DNA of 64,000 nucleotides from Paralichthys olivaceus (Eukaryota > Chordata > Actinopteri > Pleuronectiformes > Paralichthyidae). Shown here one piece after another: positions 16,467-58,945 of this stretch; positions within the stretch are counted from its first letter, which is position 1; the number at the start of each line of letters is the position of its first letter. The notes beneath the pieces are model-generated. The model was given only the letters and a program-made list of their open reading frames with translations, did not search any database and had not been told where the DNA came from. The DNA is taken from positions 7,175,001-7,239,000 of the forward strand of contig NC_091108.1 of the NCBI RefSeq assembly GCF_024713975.1, written 5' to 3'. The position numbers and the translations under genes are program-made.

Positions 16467-17000
16467 CAGGCGTTGGGTGTGACTGGTCAGTTCACACAGA
16501 CTCAGAGTCATCAGCTTATTGTTCAACTCGTCTGTCTGAGCCACTTGGCTTTATTGCTTGATTGATAACAATGTCCATTCACCGTAGCAAGAGAACGTCT
16601 GCAGCTACATATTTTATCACATTTCACGTTAATACAATGTCAGAGATATACGTGACATCACCTGTCTGTAGCTGCTTTCAGACATGCACTGAACTCTGGA
16701 TAACATTCCGTAAAACGGTCAGAGGCTTGCAAATACTCAGGATTATCTCCGAATGAGTCGATGTGAGAACACAGCAGGAGATTCTCTGAGAGATTCACCG
16801 CAAGTGAGTGAGCGTTTTATCACACGGTGACCAGTTGCAGTAGGAGTTGGGACTGGTCAGCACAGATGCATAGTGCAGAGTCATCAGCATATTGTTTGAG
16901 CCTCTATGATTGAGCAACTTGGCTTTATTGCTTTTTCCTGCAGTTTATATCTAATTTATTTAGACCACATACATCAATCAATTGTAATAACAATGTGCAT
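16467..17000 (+). repeat. Direct duplication, two diverged copies
   Basis: Copy 1 (about 16,467-16,579) and copy 2 (about 16,837-17,000) share GACTGGTCAG, CAGAGTCATCAGC, TATTGTT, CACTTGGCTTTATTGCTT/CAACTTGGCTTTATTGCTT and TAACAATGT in the same order. Copy 2 has an extra piece of about 50 bases near its right end. An interspersed repeat fragment (GCTGCTTTCAGACATGCAC at about 16,671) sits between them. Confidence 0.6.
16668..16760 (+). mobile_element. Non-autonomous repeat copy
   Basis: Starts GCTGCTTTCAGACATGCAC and continues GAACTCTGGATAACATTCC; related on the opposite strand to the odf2l intronic copy at 48,770-48,900. Confidence 0.5.
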
Positions 17001-42329: not shown

Positions 42330-44295
42330 CTATGTAATGATGGACATCTCCTCTTGCTCTCGACTCTCTGACATTGCATTCACTACATTTCCCAAGTATC
42401 TGCAGAAAGTTTGCCTCACGTCCTCTGGCTCCTCCTCCAGGTTGGAGTGAATAAGCGACAGTCTGCTCAGATGTGAGGCTGCATCAAAAAGAAAGAATGT
42501 TAGTTGAGAAATGGCCATAACTGAAACAGCTCTGGTCTGAGAAGCCTGTAGCACAATTACCTAAAGGCAGGCGTTCATCTTCTACTCCGCTGCCGGGTTT
42601 GTGATGAGCTATGAGCAAGCACTGATTGTCCAGCAAACCCTGAGAGGAGATGAACATCGAATACCATGTCTCAATTTCTTTGAGGTGGCTCGGAACATCA
42701 GGATTAAAAACGATCACCACGCCACTGGAGTCTTTCATAAGTGCAGGCCAGCAGGATTCAAATCTGGATGATAGGATTAAAGAACATTTGTGAAAAATAA
42801 TAGTAAGCAAATTTGTAAAGTTAGTTTTTACAGTACTTCTCAGATTAAGAGTCACCAATTATTCAAATGGCCGTTAGATAGAGTTTGTACGAGCTCATAA
42901 AATAGGAAAACGGGAAAATAGGACAGACCTCATACTTGACCAAAGGCAGGTTTCAAATGATATTGCTTAGAGTTTTTTATTTATTTTATTATTTCAGGTT
43001 CTGCTGTCCCAAGAGGTGGAGATAATGTACTCAACAACATAGGTGTTACGACCTCAAAAGCTCGATCACCTCAAGTCATTAGACGGGTGTGTGCGATATC
43101 TAATAGTTTTAAAGTAGTAATATGTCTTTTTTTCAAAGCACACGATGAGATAGTCTAAAATCCAAACTTGTCAGTGATGTTTAACTCACTTGAAATCTCC
43201 AGAGCAGTCCCAGAGCTCAACCTCACATGTGTTGTGGTCACCACTGCCTTCAGGTTGGGATTCAAATTCCAATATCCTATAAAAACATTTACATGCTTGT
43301 TTAACATGAGTTAAACCTCTCATCATGTCAAGCCAAACAAGACGGGTTAGAGCTAATAATCTTCTTTGAATTCAAAAAATGCCCATAAAACATCTGTGCC
43401 AGGTGAAAGGCAACAGCGATGAGACAGTTTGTACCTGACTCCCTGAGTGGGTCTGTAGTCCCCCCCCATATTTTCTGCTGTGTCCGAGAGAAAATTAGCA
43501 AGAACTGTTTTCCCACTCTGAAAGACATACACAGAGCATTATAAGAGAAGAACAATCAATAATGTTATGAGATGTGTGCTGTGAAAAAGGTCAGTTACTA
43601 GTTTTACTTTAGTTAACACTTGATTGTGAGACTGCTCCACACCTCATAGCAGAACAACTGGTTGAGGAAATACTGCAAGGTGGTTTGTGTTACCAAAGTA
43701 CAAAATAAAACATTTACATCGGCCGAAAGTGTTGAAATCTTTGAATGCAAGCTGAAACTGTTCAGCCTAGTTTAAACTATAATTTTATTGCATCTATGTT
43801 TCAGGTTGTATTCACTTTCATCTATCTGTTAATATTGTGAGTATGTGTTTTTGTCTCTTGTATCATTGTTCTCACAGCTTTTAATATAAGTTGATGGTTG
43901 CTCACTGTCTGCACTTTGGTTTGTTTCGTCTGTTCTTGGCTCATCAGTCAGTTGTAAAACACTCTGAGCTGCACTGACCTGAATGACAGGTGTTGTATAC
44001 AAATCTCAAATAATGTTAAGTTACTTTTGTTAACAGTTATGAAGCTAGTGAGCACAGAAGACCTCACACGGGATGGTGACGTTTGGAGTCAAGCTTACAA
44101 TTGTGGTGTTTGATGCCATTAAAACAGTTTGTGAGCATCACATGCATTTCAGCTAAGGTAATATGTGCTCAACACAATAAAAGCCACATCACAGTTCTGT
44201 CATTCAGTGACCAACACAACAGACCACACAGCAAAACCAGAGAGACGAGCACTTACCTCACTGGGACCAATAAAGAGTATTTTAGCTTTGAACAT
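42330..44295 (-). CDS. ift22: Intraflagellar transport protein 22 (Rab-like GTPase, RABL5)
   Basis: Five coding exons on the minus strand: 44295-44257, 43517-43435, 43276-43190, 42763-42561 and 42478-42330. All introns are GT/AG, all phases agree, and the product is 186 aa (human about 185). IFT22 is a small Rab-like GTPase of the IFT-B complex, which carries cargo along ciliary microtubules; it is known to bind the IFT74/IFT81 pair. The P-loop GPSESGKT is at residues 10-17 and is split by intron 1. A DxxG-type motif, WDCSG, is at 63-67. The block FESCWPALMKD and the C-terminal MSESREQEEMSIIT are near-identical to the vertebrate family. The usual NKxD guanine motif is absent, replaced by AHHKPGSG, which I recall as normal for this family. 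The ATG is the only one in exon 1 and lies in a CCAAT-containing promoter shared with odf2l. Seen: exons and motifs. Known: function. Very sure of identity. Confidence 0.96.
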
Positions 44296-44751
44296 TTCCG
44301 GAAGCTTAGCATTAGCCTCCCAGCTAACTCTGACTGCAGACAAGCCGTGCTAGCGACAAGTGAAATCACAACCCGTCACTTTTAGCTGAGCTCTCATCTA
44401 AAACATGACGTTTTCTGCGATTGTCGGAGAATCGCGCACTTAAACAATAAATAGGAATAATCTTCTTAAACTCGATGTCAGCAGAGGATCGTCCTCCTCC
44501 AGGGGGAAATAAACTTCCTCCTCGTTTCTATGGTTTCAACCAGCCTCTTCGTTTTCTTTCTGCCCATTGGCTGCTCGTGAGTGAAATCAAATTTACTCCC
44601 GCCTACTTTCTGCCCAAGGGACGAATCAGTAACGAGTACGCAAGGAAGTGACGCGACTTGGTGTTAGAGCTAACCAATCCGGTTAGAGGAGGCGGGCCCT
44701 TCCGCCTGGAGCAGCGTCGTTCACAACCGACACAGAGCGAAGCTGAAGCAG
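44296..44751. promoter_or_regulatory. Bidirectional promoter of ift22 (left) and odf2l (right)
   Basis: The interval between the ift22 ATG and the probable end of the odf2l non-coding exon 1 is GC- and CpG-richer than its surroundings. It holds inverted CCAAT boxes (ATTGG near 44,568) and a direct CCAAT near 44,673. A 14-base stretch at 44524-44537, GTTTCTATGGTTTC, matches 10 of 14 positions of an RFX X-box palindrome of the type that drives cilium genes. There is no TATA box close to either start. The two genes are transcribed divergently, so one promoter for both is the simplest reading (inference). Confidence 0.6.
44700..44751 (+). other. odf2l: Probable non-coding first exon of odf2l
   Basis: A GC-rich stretch ending in GAAGCAG followed by GTGATG, a usable splice donor, lies immediately right of the shared promoter. 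It has no ATG in frame with odf2l. Splicing from here to the acceptor before 45,331 would give a 5' UTR followed by the coding ATG at 45342. The 5' boundary is a guess. Confidence 0.4.
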
Positions 44752-45029
44752 GTGATGTTTACGTGTTCCGGTCTCTTTATATACAGTCTATGGTTCCGGT
44801 TTACGATCGATTATTGGTTTGATCTCTGATCGCTGAGTGGCAGCTGTCTGTAGTTAAGCAGAAGCGTCAGTAGCCACTTCCACTCTTCCTGTCTGTCGCT
44901 AAGGACTCAGCTGAGTGAGCCTACTTGACACACCGTCCTTCATAGTATCAAGCTAACAGAGCTAAAACAATGAGCTTTAAAAGGTCATGTAGGTTGAACG
45001 TCTCTGTCCTTACTGTGTAATCTACTGTT

Positions 45030-45440
45030 TGTCTGTGCTGTCAGTGGTGACAGGTATGTCCCCAGAGGTTGAACCCCCCCCCCCCCGGTTTCAGCTCTAC
45101 CATGGAGGACCTCATTCTGAGTCGCCCTAATTTTCCTCTTTGTGATCAACTAATGTTGCCTTCATGTTGTTGTGTCAGCAGTGGGAGGTATGTCCCCAGA
45201 GGATGATCCCCAGCGTCCCTCCATTGCTCCAGCTTCACCACAGAGGCCCTAACTCCGATTTGTGATGCTCCAGATCGCCCTAACTGTCCTCTGTGTGAAA
45301 GTTAATATTGTCTCTATGTTGTTGTGTCAGTAGTGAGAGGGATGTCTCAAGAGGATGAACCCCAAAGTCCCGCCCGTGTATTCAGCTCTACGGCAGAGGG
45401 CGTCACCGCGAGTCTTAGCGAGCCAGATCGACCTCAGGAG
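45030..45440 (+). repeat. Triplicated first coding exon of odf2l (two decayed copies)
   Basis: Three degenerate tandem units, each made of an acceptor-like TGTCAG, an ATG followed by codons similar to MSPED/EP or MSQEDEP, and a tail. Their ATGs are at 45056, 45190 and 45342, so the periods are 134 and 152 bp. All share forms of TGTCCCCAGAGGATGA, and copies A and C share AGCTCTAC. Only the third copy stays open and joins a donor at 45502. The second stops after 20 codons; the first contains a run of about 15 C and has no useful donor. Copies A and B may be dead, or may form upstream open reading frames in the 5' UTR. Confidence 0.75.
45067..45087. repeat. Poly-C tract
   Basis: A run of about 15 cytosines inside the first exon-repeat copy. 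It is likely to vary in length between individuals and to be a sequencing weak point. It decides which frame the first copy would be read in. Confidence 0.8.
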
Positions 45441-48400
45441 CTGGGGAGAAGAAAGACACGCAGCGGTCTCCAGACAAGACCCCCAGAGGATGACGTCAGC
45501 TGGTGAGGTCCCTTTGAATAACTAGATCCTAATCTGTCGGGCTAAGCGTCCACTCCCCCGCCGCCTGAGTGATTTAGAGCATTTTCTCATTTTAAAGTTT
45601 TTCATCTTCCTGTTTTTCATTTAGTCATGGAGCTTCTGCCAGCGGAACCAGCCCCTTCCTGAAAACACTGATGGACGCGGAAGCAGCTGCCAACTCGGCT
45701 GCCGTGCAACTCGTGTCTTTTAAAGATGCGATGGAGGATGAGTTTGCTGTACGTTGACTGCAACTTAGCATCAAATGGGTTCAAACATGGGCCCTGCACG
45801 TGTGTAAACCAGAATAATATTATATTCATGACCCAATGATGTAACTTGTGTTTTTATTTCTCTGTCAATTAAGGATTCGAGGCAGTCCGCCATGGACAAG
45901 CGCCGAGCTACGAGGCAGAGAGGACTCCTGCTGGAGAAGTTGGAGGATTTCAGACGAATAAATAAATCTGTTCGACAGAAGCTGAAGCAGCTGCAGGAAG
46001 CGGAGGTTGGTTATGACACCTTTGTGAGTCAAGTGCATATCAGAAGATAAAAATGTGTTTTTATTTTATTTTTTTTACTTTTGTTGTTCACAGGCTGATC
46101 GAATTGATGCCAACCAACATACTGAGATGTTAATGAAGAAGATAACACAGGCTGAAAGTGAAAATGAGGTGTGTTTCAGTTTATTATTATTGAAAAGGGA
46201 AGAACTGGAAGTGGCAGTAAATTAGTTTTTGTGTAATCCTGCTGTCAAACAGACAGGTGTGTAAACATGACCTCCTCGGAGGACGTACTTGATGTTAATG
46301 GCGGGTTTACCCCACATTGGTTGATGTTATTGCTGACACACGTGACATAAGTGCTTCTATTGTATGAGATTGAACGCATGTTTAGAAAGATCATAACTAT
46401 AACAATCATTTTGTGATTTCTGTTGTTTTCTTCCTCAAGCGTTTAAACCGAAATTTGACTGAGACAGAAAGAAGATTCGAGGAGCTGATGGCTCTGCGGA
46501 GAGAAGAGCAGGTGGGTGTAGGAGTATTGTCCATTCAGACGATGAAATAACTGCATTTGAAATCCTCTGTCCACACTGTTGTTCTCAGGAGAACGTGAAG
46601 ACTGCCACTCACATGACAAAGTCTGTGGAGGCGACTCGGACTCACCTGCAGGAGCAGCTTCGCACCAAGGACGCTGAGAACAATCGTCTGACGGCACGGC
46701 TGCGGGTATGAACAGCTCAGTGTTTTATCAGCCAAAGCTTCAACAGACAAATGGCTTAAACGGGCATGTGTGACAGATCTTCGTGGTGTCTTCTAGACTC
46801 TGGAAAGAACCCGGACTGAGCAGAAGATGGAGATTAAAGATCTGAGAGGATCCATCAACGCTTTAAATGAGACGGCAGCAAAGGACAAAGAATCTCTAAA
46901 GAAAGCCACAAGAGCACAGAAACTGAGAGCCGAGAGATTTGCATCTGCTATTGAGAAATGTTATGCACAGCTAAGGGAAAAGGTATGAATTCAAAATAGC
47001 AATTTTTTAATACCTCTTTCCAATCCATGGTTGTTCAATGTCTGACTTTCTTTTTCGTTGTCGGGCTAAAGGATGCTCAGCTGGTCAGTGCCCGTTCGGA
47101 AAGAGACTCCAAGAGACGGCAGAAGGAGCAGCAGACGGATGAGAAGAACAAGCTCGAGGCTCATATAGACTTTTTGAAGAGGTTGGCCTTTTCCTCTTGT
47201 TACACACTCCTCCTCTTGTAGCACGCAGTGGAAATCAATACATGCATGTGTCAACTAACAGCTTTCACCGATAAATGTTGAATCTACATCTCCGTTAAAG
47301 TCAAATCACGGACTTGACAGCGAGGCTGCAGAAGGAGAGGGATGAGCTGACCGCGGCTCGTGACACCGTGATGCAACGCGTTGAAAAACTCTGCGCTGAA
47401 AACAGAGACCTCCGCATCAATAATGCAGCACTTGAGGTACAAGTTGCCAAACAGCTTGCACATGAGCCAAAGGCATACAAATTCAGAATTCCAGAATTGT
47501 TGCTATGCAGACATTTGGTACAAGGTTTGAGGCTATTTGTCAAATATTAAAATGTTTATGTTGTTGCTGCACTGCTACAAGTATCATATTTGCTTCTGAC
47601 TCTTACTTCTGTCACTAAAATGATTTGTGTGATCACAGGCATCAGTTGCTCGGTTGGAGCAGCAGCTGAATGATTGTGAGTCGGCTCTGGTGGAGGAGAA
47701 GGTCGAGTCGCAGGAGAGGAAACATCAAGCTGAACAGTGTCAATATCAGGTGACCGATCACTAATCCATATAAAGTCTTTTTATTTTTTAGGAACTCTTT
47801 CTTTTTTCTATTCTTTCTTTATGTTGACAAACTTAACACACACATTTGAAATAAAAATAATAAATAAATCATAATTTAATAAAAAAGATTATCATGCTTA
47901 TTATGCTTTGAATGTCATCCACGGCATATTAATTATGGTTTGCTTTTTATAATGAATGCAAATCATTCCTGAACAGAAATTGAGAAGTCTTTTTAGGTGT
48001 TTATGATCCACAGTTGCTACTTTAAAGAAAAACCATCGGACATCTAGCCAGTGAACGCAAAGAAAAACACTATGTTTTAAACCTACAGACGATTGTAACA
48101 AACTTATCTATTTAACCTCGTTTCTCATGCCAGAAATAATTTTTTCATGCTTTTCTAACACTGTTTTATATCTTGACTCTTTCCTTGATCCATAATGTTC
48201 TAAGCATATTACAGCTGTAGGGAAGGTTGTTGCTTATTTGATTATATGGCTCTGAATTTTCTTTCTAGGTCGCAGAACTTCAAGTTGAGATCAATGATAT
48301 GAGGATAAAATATGGAAATATTTTAAGAGAGACGGAGAAGACAAGGGATGGGAAAGATACAGAAGTTGAGAAGGTGAGCCTCTCCTGCCTCTATGTGTGT

Positions 48401-50406
48401 TCCTCTATATTTTCTCATTTCTAAATCTTTCAGCATGCGCTAATCCTTAGGGCTACCAGTTGGTTCATTCAACAGTATGGAATATTTAAGGTGATTATTT
48501 TCTCTGAATTTACACTGTTGTCAGACCTTTTACAGAGTTACAGTACAAAGCAGGAGATTGTGTGGGTCAAACAGGAAAATGTCAGAACATTTGGGAACAT
48601 TCAGTCGAGGGGTGGTGTTTGAATTCCACTGCGGAAACCAACTTTTTTTGTGTTCTTTTTTTGTTTGTTTGTCTTTTTGATTGTGCGTCTGTTGCGTGTT
48701 AGATTAGTCATCAACTCACCCAGTTTCCTGCTGTATTCTCACATAGACTTCACTCTGACATTTTCCAGATAGGGGCCAGGGCAGGAAAAGTTCTGGAAAC
48801 ATTTCCAGATCAACTGACTCAGACATTTTCATCCTCACATATGGCCTCTCCAGAAAATGTCAGGAAAATGTTCGGTGCATGTCTGAAAGCAGCTTGGGTA
48901 GAATTTGCATGACTAACATATTACATGCATCTGTGAGTAGTCAGGGTTTACTATGAGAGGTTTGATTAGTCTTTTTATTTTGTCTACTCCCAACGCTGCA
49001 ATCCTTTCAACCCCCTCCCTCCTCTGGGGCCCCAGGTGAGGCAGCAGCTCCAGGCCCGTGTGGACGAGCTGAAGCGTTACCCTGAGTTGCTGAGTGCAGC
49101 CGAGCAGAGTCTCTTTGAGAAGCAGGAGAACCTGCGAAGCTCAGAGAGGAAGTGCTCAGAAAAGTCAGAGTCCATTAGGCAACTGCAGGTTAAGGTGTGC
49201 AACATGAGCTGTGCTGGTCACATTGCCTGCATCTGACCACTAGGCAGTAGTACAACCTCACGTGTCTGTCGGTGCATCTTGTTTTTTGGTCGTGCTGTGA
49301 GTTTTGATGATTGTGATGAATGAAAAACACATCTCAGCCATTTGTAACTCCAGACCAATTTGTGTTTTTTCAATCTCCATCATCAGCAGTGTTGAACTGG
49401 TAGTTTGAAAACTGTGTTTTCTAGTTTGTGTTTGAAGCGTCATTTCATCCAGTGTTGCATGTGATGTGAGACTCTTTTTTTTCCCTCTTGTAACCAATGC
49501 AAATGATATGAAAATAGCAACTGTGAATTTTGCATATGCAGATGGGAAGTCAGACTACATTGCTGAGATCATCGTTGGGGATGAAAGAGTCCATTCACGA
49601 GGCCAACGTTAAACTACAAGAGAGAATTAATTCGGTTCAAAAGTAAGACAAACCTTAATCAACAGATTAAATATAGAAATTGCTTGAGCATGATGTTATA
49701 AAGTGTTGTATTCCATGCGTGTGTGTTTGAAGGCAGATGGAGAGGCTGCAGCAGGAGAACCTGGAGCTCGTACGGAGGCTGGCAGCTCAGGAGGAAGCTC
49801 TGAGCTACAGCAACCAGCAGCTGGATCAGCGCTCGTCGGAGAGTCAGGCCCTCACCCGGCAGCTGGAGGCGGCTTTATCAGACGTTCAACAACAGGTACA
49901 GCTCACACACAGGGTTGTTGAAGAGCATCTACAACTATGAAAAACCAAATCACTGATTGATCTGACACAAGCCTGATTCCCTTTATCCGATGATAGAAAG
50001 TTTTGTCACGTTTCCAGGTCAAAAAAGTCAAAGAGCAGAATCTCTCCAGAGAAGAGAGTCTTCAGACTAAAATCCTGCAGCTGGAAGCTGAGAAGAGCAG
50101 AAGAGATAAAGAGCTGAGGCTTCTCCGCCAGAGTAAACTGACTGTGAGTATTCTTCCTTTCCTATAACGTGTAACACATTTGAAAGTCATGGATTGATCT
50201 GATTGTTGTATTTTCTCTCTCTGACTGTGCAGGCAGAGCGACAGTTCGAGGTGCGTCTGAAGGACCTGCAGCTCAGCCTCGACCAATCAGAGAGCCACAA
50301 AAAAAGCATTCAGAACTACGTCGACTTCCTGAAAAACTCCTATCAGACCATGTTTGATGAGGGACTGCAGACTTCCACAGTTACATCCTCGTATTTCCTA
50401 AAATAA
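45342..50406 (+). CDS. odf2l: Outer dense fibre protein 2-like, centriolar/basal-body coiled-coil protein
   Basis: Sixteen coding exons: 45342-45502, 45625-45748, 45874-46005, 46094-46168, 46440-46511, 46589-46705, 46797-46982, 47072-47181, 47301-47436, 47639-47749, 48269-48373, 49036-49194, 49542-49642, 49733-49895, 50018-50143 and 50233-50406. All phases join, giving 683 aa. From about residue 90 to 670 the protein is almost continuous charged heptad sequence (coiled coil), rich in Glu, Gln, Lys and Arg. The C-terminal block SIQNYVDFLKNSYQTMF is the signature shared by ODF2 and ODF2L. The central blocks KESLKKATRAQK and ELKRYPELLSAAEQ also match this family. ODF2L is known from centrioles/basal bodies, where it restrains cilium formation. 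Choice of ODF2L over ODF2 rests on C-terminal similarity plus human synteny with CCN1 and BCL10. The start chosen is the first ATG of the last of three repeated exon copies; the N-terminal 53 residues are low-complexity and poorly conserved. Confidence 0.9.
48770..48900 (-). mobile_element. Non-autonomous repeat copy in odf2l intron
   Basis: Read on the minus strand it begins GCTGCTTTCAGACATGCAC and continues with a region resembling ATTTTCCTGACATTTTCTGG. The same start occurs on the plus strand near 16,671. Two diverged copies in one window, and my recollection that this motif is abundant in teleosts, support an interspersed element. The family name is uncertain. Confidence 0.5.
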
Positions 50407-55029: not shown

Positions 55030-58000
55030 CAGAAAAAGTGTCCTGAAACATATGATCAGAATGCTTCTCCCAGCGTCCTCCCAGAAGCCTCAAGAGAAGC
55101 CGACCCTCCTCCTCCTTTCATTCAGTGAGCCAAGAACCACCCTGTCTGATTTCCACTCTGCCAGGACTCTCTCTCCAATTCATCCATTTTCATATCTGTT
55201 TTATTATCCGAGAGGAAATCCTAAATGAAAGAAAGAAAAAGAAAAGAAAACAATGAAATATTATATAATATTATAAAATATATAATAAAAAAAAAAAATT
55301 GGCAGAATTGACTCTATCAACTTGTGCTTTTTATAGTGGAAACTGATCATTTATTAGATTGTTCACATGATTATTTTAATTTAAAACTCATTTCTGCTTT
55401 ATATGTAAAAGCCTTATTCATTCTATCAAGCTGCTTTTTTGTTGGGTTCTTTTGTATAGAAACAATATGTTTCTTCTCTTCTTCTCCTCCAGGTTTTTGA
55501 TATAAAAGATATTAACCTTGATGATGATGAAACCTTTCCTGGTTAGATCAAGTGGGTAGCAATAAAGTACTGAGTAGTTTTGTTAAGGCCAAAAAAGAAA
55601 AAACAAAAGCACGAATAACATTAATACCTGAAGTATTTCATCATCAGCCTCCATACATGCCAGAGCAGCCCCACACAGGACTCAACATCGGGGAACCACA
55701 AGTTCTGATATAAATATTGAAGAGAAGCTACATATTTCTATGACCAACTGAATTTCTATCTCAGACGAAACCGTGTTTAGACTGCCGCCCCTTGTCTTTG
55801 CTGGGCGATTGTGTTTTCTAACTTTGCGTGCTTTTAAATTCACAGATTCCATTAGGGTGTGCGTGGATTAGAGTTTGCTCAGATTCAATATTGAATCTCT
55901 TTGTATCCTTTGTTTGGTCTGAATGAGAAACATGCACACACAGAAACAAGAAAGCAAAAAGAAAGCTTGAGCGACGCCTGCGGCAACATTCCTCTCAGGA
56001 TGAACGTTGCAGGTCTCTTTGAAACAGCTGCCAGGATAAAAAAGCTTCTTCTTTTATCTACATCAAAGAACAATGAAAACGATCAGGGAAAGAATAAAAA
56101 AATCGTTCCTTTCATTTCAACCTGTGTGAACAAGAGGCCGACCAGGGAAGACAGGCACATCCTCCATCTTATCTAACTGAGGTATCCAGAGCCAGTTTGA
56201 GTCAGAGCCAGCTCAGGCAGATGAGGAGCAAACATGCGTGAGCTGGGTCCGTCCACTGATTCCTGGAAATCGCTGAGTGTTGTGTTGTTTTAATCTCCAT
56301 AGACATTGCACATACCAGCCACTGCCAACCAAATGACCAATAGGGAAAGTTTAAGTGCAACAGGTGATTTGCTAATGCTACCAGGTGAGCAAGCAGGCAT
56401 CCGCATGCACTACATCTCATGAACGTGATTCCACAGGCTCTTGATTCCACAGGCTCGTGATTCCACAGGCTCGGCTAACCTAAAATGCTATCTAGCATGG
56501 AAAATGCTATAGGCTAGCTCTTTTCAGTCAAAGGTGTTCCCTGGGCTTCTTTCTGGACTGGCTTTTCAAGGTTGAACTTTTTAAGGCTAAAGATTTAGGG
56601 CAGGGGGAAACACATGTTTGCTAATTTCATAAATTGAGAAAAGGTCAACAAAATTAAACTCACATAGATTAATTTTGGTCACACAAACAAATCTGCACTA
56701 AAGGGGAGATTTTAAATGCTGCATCTTGGAAATAATTGTGCGGAAGAAGTAATTGTTCCTGCTAAGTAGAGCCAATCGTGGTGTAAATCATATATCTCTT
56801 GGAAAGAAAACAAATGTATAATGTACCAAATAAGAATTAAACATTAATGAATTAAAAGACCACATTTTACGTGGTTTCCCTCATCTTGCTGCTGAGTTCC
56901 TGTGGTCATCCATTGCAACTGTAAAGATTGATTTACTTATTTTATAAGAGACATTATGCAACATTTACCCATCCTGCAGATGATCCTGTTATGGAGACAA
57001 GGCCTTTGTTGTCTTTGTTATCCCCTTCTACTCTATACTCTGAGCCATCCTACTGTAATTACATTAGTCCACATGTAGTTGTCCCTTGGACATGATGGGA
57101 CATTAATGGGATGTGGAGACGGTGGGTGGGCAGATGGTCGAGATGATGACCAGTTGGAGAAAAGAAGAAACACATATAAACAGGTAATTTTTGCGATAAT
57201 GTAAAGATTCATGCTAATCTCTAATGTGTAAATCCACAGTGGGTCTGAGAGAAACTCTTTCTGCTTATGTAGGAGCAGGTCATACTCTGTGCCACAGACG
57301 GGTCTAGATATGAATCCAAATCCAGTTACGTCATTTCTATAAATGATTCCCTTTGTCCGTCTTCTGTTCCCTGTGGAGCCCACTCCCGAGTCAGTACTTT
57401 GTGTTTATGTTAAAATCTCACTGCTGATTCGACATTATTTCCAGGCTTCTGCTCTCTGCTGTTCAACATGAATGAAGAGAATTAATATGAAGCCTTTTTT
57501 GGAGCATGTATTGTCAGTTTCTGCAGACGCTTTGTTGACATTTACCAAATATGTTTCTCTTGTGTAAAGAGGCTGATGTACGCACAACCTGACCTTTTAA
57601 CACCTGACATTTAAAGGGCAGTGTTTCTTTTGTAATTCTCCCCCAGAAATTACTGGGATGCATCAGCAGTCACAGTGATATCGGAGCCTGTATTTCCCCT
57701 TCTCTTTCAAACCATTATCATTACGCCGAAAAAAAAACCCCAGGGCGAAATAAACAGACTTGTGTCTGATTCCAAATAAGTAAGGATATCTCTCTGCTCG
57801 AAGATGGTGTTTTCCTGATACACAGTGCATATTAGATTGCAGAACATGACAAAACAAGCCAGACAACCATCTCCTCAGGGAGCAACTGTCCTCAAACAGA
57901 TGGTGGTATATCATGATCAGAGGGAAAGGAAAATATTGTTTTGCCATTTTACAATTTATTCAAAGTTTACTGGTCTTTGTAGGACTCCATGCTCTCTGTG

Positions 58001-58454: not shown

Positions 58455-58945
58455 TTCAGCAGCGTCACCTAGTGGAGCTCATCAGAATAACACTTCACCT
58501 GTATAAAAAAACTGACACTTGAGATCAGTTGACACAGTCTTAACTCGTCCACTAAGTTTTTATTCTTTATTCAGCTCGTTTCATTTTCTTTATAGATGCT
58601 TCTTTTTTCTTATCCTATGTTGATTCTTGTATTTGTCATCAGATTATCACTTCACCTGAATAAGAAACACTGGAAGTCAATGATCATTGTTTCTACTTGT
58701 CCACTACTTTTTGTTCTTTATTCAACCATTTGTACTGTCTTTATAACCGCTTCTTCTCTGTTGTTTTAATAATTTGTCATCTTATATTTGAAATAAAGTC
58801 ATTTTAATTCCCTTCCTGTTGAAATGTGCAACAGAAATGAACTTGTCTTGCTCGGCAGCGCCACCTAGTGGGGCTCATCAGAACAGCACTCCACCTGTAT
58901 CAGAAACACTATAAAACTTGAAATCAAGGAGCACGAGTCCGGACG
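58455..58945. repeat. Degenerate tandem repeat upstream of bcl10, about 200-bp unit
   Basis: Unit 1 runs from about 58,455 to 58,642 and unit 2 from 58,643 to 58,855; unit 2 lacks the first 30 bases. A partial unit 3 follows at 58,856-58,945. Shared pieces include CACCTAGTGG, GCTCATCAGAA, ACTTCACCTG, CTCGTCCACTA/CTTGTCCACTA, TTCTTTATTCA and ATTTGTCATC. Units 1 and 3 carry CACCTAGTGG, which on the minus strand is a CTCF-type core. Confidence 0.7.
58856..58871 (-). promoter_or_regulatory. CTCF-like site
   Basis: The minus strand reads CCACTAGGTGGCGCTG, which agrees with the vertebrate CTCF core consensus across its whole length. A weaker copy with one change (CCACTAGGTGACGCTG) lies at about 58,460-58,475. 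Binding is inferred from the motif alone. Confidence 0.5.

Follow-up and report, generated by a model that had tools for sequence, protein, structure and literature searches.

A potato RdRp gene gained an intron when a segment made up of the 3′ part of an intron and the 5′ part of the following exon was duplicated and a cryptic 5′ splice site was recruited; the copies differ at ten nucleotides (cited part of PMC4974935). In UGT1A and in hydra, alternative first exons are spliced to common exons (cited part of PMC9013439). A threefold tandem repeat around the start codon of an odf2l gene was compared with these systems. In human cells, over-expression of ODF2L blocked ciliation and knock-down raised it, and pronephric cilia were shortened in zebrafish ODF2L morphants, according to a meeting abstract that is silent on the 5′ end of the gene (PMC4519066). 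The array is described in none of the odf2l, tandem-exon-duplication, synteny, intron-creation or intron-gain literature among the matches listed, as judged from titles and the starts of abstracts.

The window comprises the whole 64,000 nucleotides analysed, from Paralichthys olivaceus (NC_091108.1, positions 7,175,001 to 7,239,000), and all coordinates are those of this stretch. Donor and acceptor scores were computed with provisional splice matrices. Sixteen exons were joined with consistent phases into a model protein of 683 residues, which includes the residues of the first coding exon (exon C). The protein was compared by BLASTP with provisional human sequences and matched ODF2 at 33% over 617 columns (242 bits) and ODF2L at 31% over 550 columns (180 bits), placing it in the ODF2 family of coiled-coil proteins. 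A Pfam search with the model protein gave 7 weak matches, 0 of them at the Pfam cut-off, and a PDB search gave 0 at E ≤ 0.001. Since ODF2 outscores ODF2L, it is the neighbours that decide for odf2l. Genes for a protein with IGFBP and VWC domains, a CARD protein and a mucolipin lie 3′ of odf2l in the window; beyond their Pfam domains we provisionally take these to be ccn1-like, bcl10-like and mucolipin. The neighbourhood resembles the mammalian ODF2L locus, a likeness that rests on the ccn1-like and bcl10-like genes. In the cited part of PMC10034349, one pig interval holds CLCA1, CLCA2, ODF2L and COL24A1, and a nearby interval on the same chromosome holds COL24A1, ZNHIT6, CCN1, DDAH1, BCL10 and C1orf52. 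ODF2L flanks the CLCA locus in mammals and chicken (cited part of PMC9651043, a paper on CLCA2). Judged by homology and synteny, the gene is odf2l. The following features were assigned to the gene and to the repeat units (A, B and C) at its 5′ end:

45000..45121 (start approximate), plus strand: unit A, with an acceptor-like region, ATG at 45056, a run of 13 C and a 24-codon ORF
45122..45274, plus strand: unit B, with an acceptor-like region, ATG at 45190 and a 20-codon ORF
45275..45432 (end about 45427-45432), plus strand: unit C, which continues without a break into the remainder of the gene
45331..45502, plus strand: predicted first coding exon of odf2l (exon C), with ATG at 45342, acceptor TGTCAG before 45331 or TAG before 45334, and donor CTG/GTGAGG
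45625..50406, plus strand: exons 2-16 of odf2l, from the gene model and BLASTP against the provisional human sequences

The initial annotation had proposed three tandem units at the 5′ end of odf2l, and these are present. Inspection of the sequence and the ORF list places TGTCAG upstream of each of the ATGs at 45056, 45190 and 45342, the ATGs being spaced by 134 (A to B) and 152 (B to C) bases. In self-BLAST, 45039-45246 aligned with 45173-45399 at 69.7% identity over 228 columns (E 7e-24), and 45039-45100 of unit A aligned with 45325-45391 of unit C at 76% over 67 columns (E 9e-10). Units B and C aligned at 77% over 126 columns. With the poly-C run of unit A masked, 1000 dinucleotide shuffles were scored per pair, and 0 of them reached the observed score for A-B, for B-C or for A-C. 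The comparison with shuffled sequence named in the initial annotation came out in favor of the repeat. Random segment pairs lying 150-400 bases apart within the initial 44 kb of the window reached the observed score in 0 of 1990 cases for A-B, 0 of 1988 for B-C and 1 of 1992 for A-C. Tandem Repeats Finder was run on the whole window (score at least 50) and returned 22 rows, among which the odf2l array was the sole one with a period above 60 bases. A, B and C are homologous and adjacent, as are the copies in tandem exon duplications with alternative first exons. Kimura two-parameter (K2P) distances were 0.33 for B-C (152 columns), 0.40 for A-C (122) and 0.43 for A-B (121); A is the most distant of the three copies, and distances of this size suggest that the duplication is old.

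Other repeats were recorded in the window. Local direct repeats occur at 58456-58926 (81% over 75 and 71% over 126 columns), a tandem repeat with a 16-base unit at 56424-56473 (3.1 copies, 94% matches), and a direct repeat pair within 16478-16933, formed by 16478-16559 and 16848-16933 (78% over 87 columns). A fourth CCCCAGAGGATGA match was seen in register at the end of exon C (45481-45493), 135 bases past its counterpart in unit C; this 13-base match is marginal, its score being reached by 8, 2 and 192 of 1000 shuffles against A, B and C. An ORF beginning MSAED at 44475 was tried as a further copy and rejected as near chance, with 166, 21 and 164 of 1000 shuffles reaching its score against A, B and C.

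The genome of the species (588,085,608 bases, 25 contigs) was searched with 45000-45520, with unit B, with unit A and with 45275-45502, and only the odf2l locus was matched. A dispersed repeat or transposon was rejected on these searches with the array and its separate units; at E ≤ 1 the unit A query returned itself alone, both B and C being missed, and a copy diverged to the same degree as A would thus escape such a search. Pattern matches for relatives were confirmed in 0 of 32 cases in viral_contigs and 0 of 192 in genome_contigs, collections of viral and prokaryotic DNA.

Alignment of the units defined the extent of the duplicated segment. Each unit consists of about 67 bases 5′ of the ATG (56 aligned in A) followed by the first 86-91 bases of the exon. 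The coding part of the exon, 45342-45502, is 161 bases long, and its second half and the donor CTG/GTGAGG at 45502 are single-copy, which rules out duplication of the whole exon. Unit A lacks stretches of 6, 5 and about 15 bases that B and C both have, and unit B has a one-base gap relative to C within the coding part. The initial annotation had described a tandem triplication of the first coding exon; the triplication is local as described, and the units hold only the first 86-91 of the 161 bases. It had also described the last copy as the only intact one, which holds, A and B being closed by stops and C being joined to the gene model. Because the duplicated segment has its 3′ break within the exon, the remainder of the exon and its donor stay joined to the last copy alone. 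The intactness of C alone follows from this geometry, and the proposal that the protein N-terminus is being rebuilt by exon duplication is unsupported and not needed.

Exon C itself is probably coding, as its frame is open and in the right phase. Its donor scores 9.2. A hairpin across this donor was considered and rejected, as it gave z −0.78, with 43 of 200 shuffles folding equally well.

The coding capacity of units A and B was assessed from the ORF list. Both are stopped early, at 24 codons in A and 20 codons in B; the stop after 20 codons given in the initial annotation applies to B only. The spacings of 134 and 152 bases are both 2 modulo 3, which puts the ATGs of A and B out of frame with the next ATG and with that of C. 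The best GT inside the ORF of A scores −0.4 and the sole GT inside that of B scores −5.5, whereas all 15 donors in the odf2l gene model have scores of 2.5-11.1. Neither A nor B combines a donor of its own with a frame compatible with the next exon. With no usable donor in their ORFs, early stops and incompatible frames, A and B are poor candidates for alternative first coding exons, and that suggestion of the initial annotation was not upheld. Differences to C at the three codon positions numbered 8/29, 10/29 and 9/27 for B and 4/23, 8/22 and 6/21 for A. No excess at third codon positions was found among the A-C and B-C differences, and these small numbers give no sign of coding constraint in A or B.

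All three units carry an acceptor (scores 6.7 in A, 5.6 in B and 5.5 in C), so A and B are not weaker than C, and a donor-like AG/GT is present in A and B. Each unit ATG has G at −3. In a patch running from the acceptor to the eighth codon the three copies resemble each other more than elsewhere: 30 of 40 columns are identical across A, B and C, which was equalled in 4 of 5000 column shuffles; this could reflect selection on all copies, and gapped columns, which lie mostly outside the patch, inflate the contrast. CpG dinucleotides number 1 in A, 3 in B and 8 in C.

The sequence upstream of the array was searched for a promoter and for a first exon. The divergent minus-strand gene starting at 44295 is provisionally taken here to be ift22-like; a Pfam search with another putative exon of it returned 0 families. 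The ift22-like gene (minus strand) and odf2l (plus strand) form a head-to-head pair of cilium-related genes at 44257-44900, with a CpG-island-like stretch between them. The features of this region and the candidate 5′ splice sites were as follows:

44257..44295, minus strand: first coding exon of the presumed ift22-like gene, MFKAKILFIGPSE, then GTAAGT
44300..44900, no strand: CpG-island-like stretch between the divergent ift22-like gene (minus) and odf2l (plus)
44751..44752, plus strand: candidate 5′ splice site CAG/GTGATG, which would end a non-coding first exon; score 7.2
45053..45054, plus strand: candidate 5′ splice site CAG/GTATGT, overlapping the ATG of unit A; score 9.8
45187..45188, plus strand: candidate 5′ splice site GAG/GTATGT, overlapping the ATG of unit B; score 8.8

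CpG observed/expected was 0.86-1.10 in five 200-base windows with starts at 44300-44700, 0.12-0.49 in those with starts at 43800-44200 and 0.15-0.59 in those with starts at 44800-45200. It was 0.15 for the start at 45000 and 0.31 for that at 45100, and 0.75-0.82 at exon C. Units A and B lie in CpG-poor DNA between the CpG island and exon C; their low CpG resembles that of the ordinary non-island sequence on the left and does not distinguish an intron from an untranslated exon. The stretch 44300-44900 is likely to be a promoter shared by the ift22-like gene and odf2l. Within 44201-45000 an RFX X-box (provisional consensus) is matched in at most 9 of 12 letters, by sites at 44207 and 44663; they carry no weight, because 311 places on the scanned strand of the window score at least 9 of 12. 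A scan for bacterial promoters and terminators (0 promoter-like and 3 terminator-like sites) is inapplicable to odf2l. Given an assumed start at 44700, a junction from 44751 to 45331 would leave a 5′UTR of 63 bases with no upstream ATG and with A and B excluded. For assumed starts at 44700, 44780 and 44880, an unspliced leader would hold 12, 11 or 10 upstream ATGs, and a leader using the donor at 45053 would hold 4, 3 or 2.

The array is most likely the product of an ordinary kind of event, apparently an old partial tandem triplication, and A and B are probably decaying relics within intron 1 of odf2l. A segment of about 134-153 bases would have been duplicated in tandem to three copies; it reached from the 3′ end of the first intron, with a branch-site-like element and the acceptor, to about halfway through the first coding exon. 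A and B have no donor 3′ of their ATGs and, spaced as they now are, stand out of frame. The odf2l RNA would then most likely begin with an untranslated exon inside the CpG island, whose donor lies near 44751 and would be spliced to the C acceptor, with A and B serving at most as spare acceptors that are occasionally used. Some observations count against the relic reading: the acceptors of A and B are no weaker than that of C and strong donor-like sites have been kept, and the 40-column patch is alike in all three copies, which is not decisive.

The kept donor-like sites would have a role if the duplication had created a 5′UTR intron, with the first exon running to the donor at 45053 (or 45187) and joined from there to the C acceptor. 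In C itself the donor would then have been removed by a change from T to G, which shields the true start codon from being spliced away. The sites in A and B are rare for the window, their scores being equalled or exceeded by 0.27% (A) and 0.53% (B) of its 3768 plus-strand GTs, and C reads GGATGT at the position where A and B have GTATGT, so that the donor-like site is missing there. As the GT is common to A and B, and A is the more distant copy, a change in C is the parsimonious one, and the potato gene provides a precedent for intron gain by a like duplication (PMC4974935, in the part cited above). Against this stand the 2-4 upstream ATGs that would remain with the donor at 45053, the cleaner structure given by the donor at 44751, and the mere 9 bases that separate the acceptor from the donor in both A and B. 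We consider such an intron unlikely. The wider proposal, that tandem duplication at a start codon gave rise to a vertebrate 5′UTR intron, is speculative and quite unlikely. In it, AG/GTATG would serve both as start-codon context and as 5′ splice site, still a donor in the upstream copies and no longer one in the coding copy, and the choice among the acceptors of A, B and C might include or leave out upstream ORFs ahead of a cilium regulator.

A further suggestion of the initial annotation was that A and B may act as upstream ORFs, which would have to be kept in the mRNA, and so reduce odf2l translation. The G at −3 of the three unit ATGs and the many upstream ATGs of an unspliced leader would fit this suggestion, but a leader with 10-12 upstream ATGs would be unusual and A and B give no sign of coding constraint; we regard it as improbable. 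That exon C too is untranslated, with the protein starting at the Met of exon 2 (45671), is highly improbable: a frame open for as long as that of C arose in 1007 of 5000 shuffles and the residues of exon C fall outside the BLASTP matches, which begin at residue 65 (provisional ODF2) and 68 (provisional ODF2L), but C has a good donor whose phase is right, its ATG has a purine at −3, and its frame stays open into exon 2.

Read as a set of relics, the array would clearly illustrate that, when a tandem duplication stops partway through an exon, a single sound exon copy and several defective ones result with no need for selection, and annotation could mistake A or B for start exons. Were the donors of A or B in fact used, the locus would record the birth of a vertebrate intron at a start codon, datable through related fish.

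As in the potato RdRp gene, within the cited part of its description, the copied segment brings a branch site, a tract and an acceptor, and a donor-like AG/GT lies in the copied part. Unlike that gene, odf2l has three units, which are far more diverged and lie at the start codon. As in the tandem exon duplications of PMC9013439, in the part cited, homologous copies of exon sequence adjoin at the 5′ end of the gene; unlike the first exons of UGT1A and hydra, the odf2l copies comprise half an exon without a donor.
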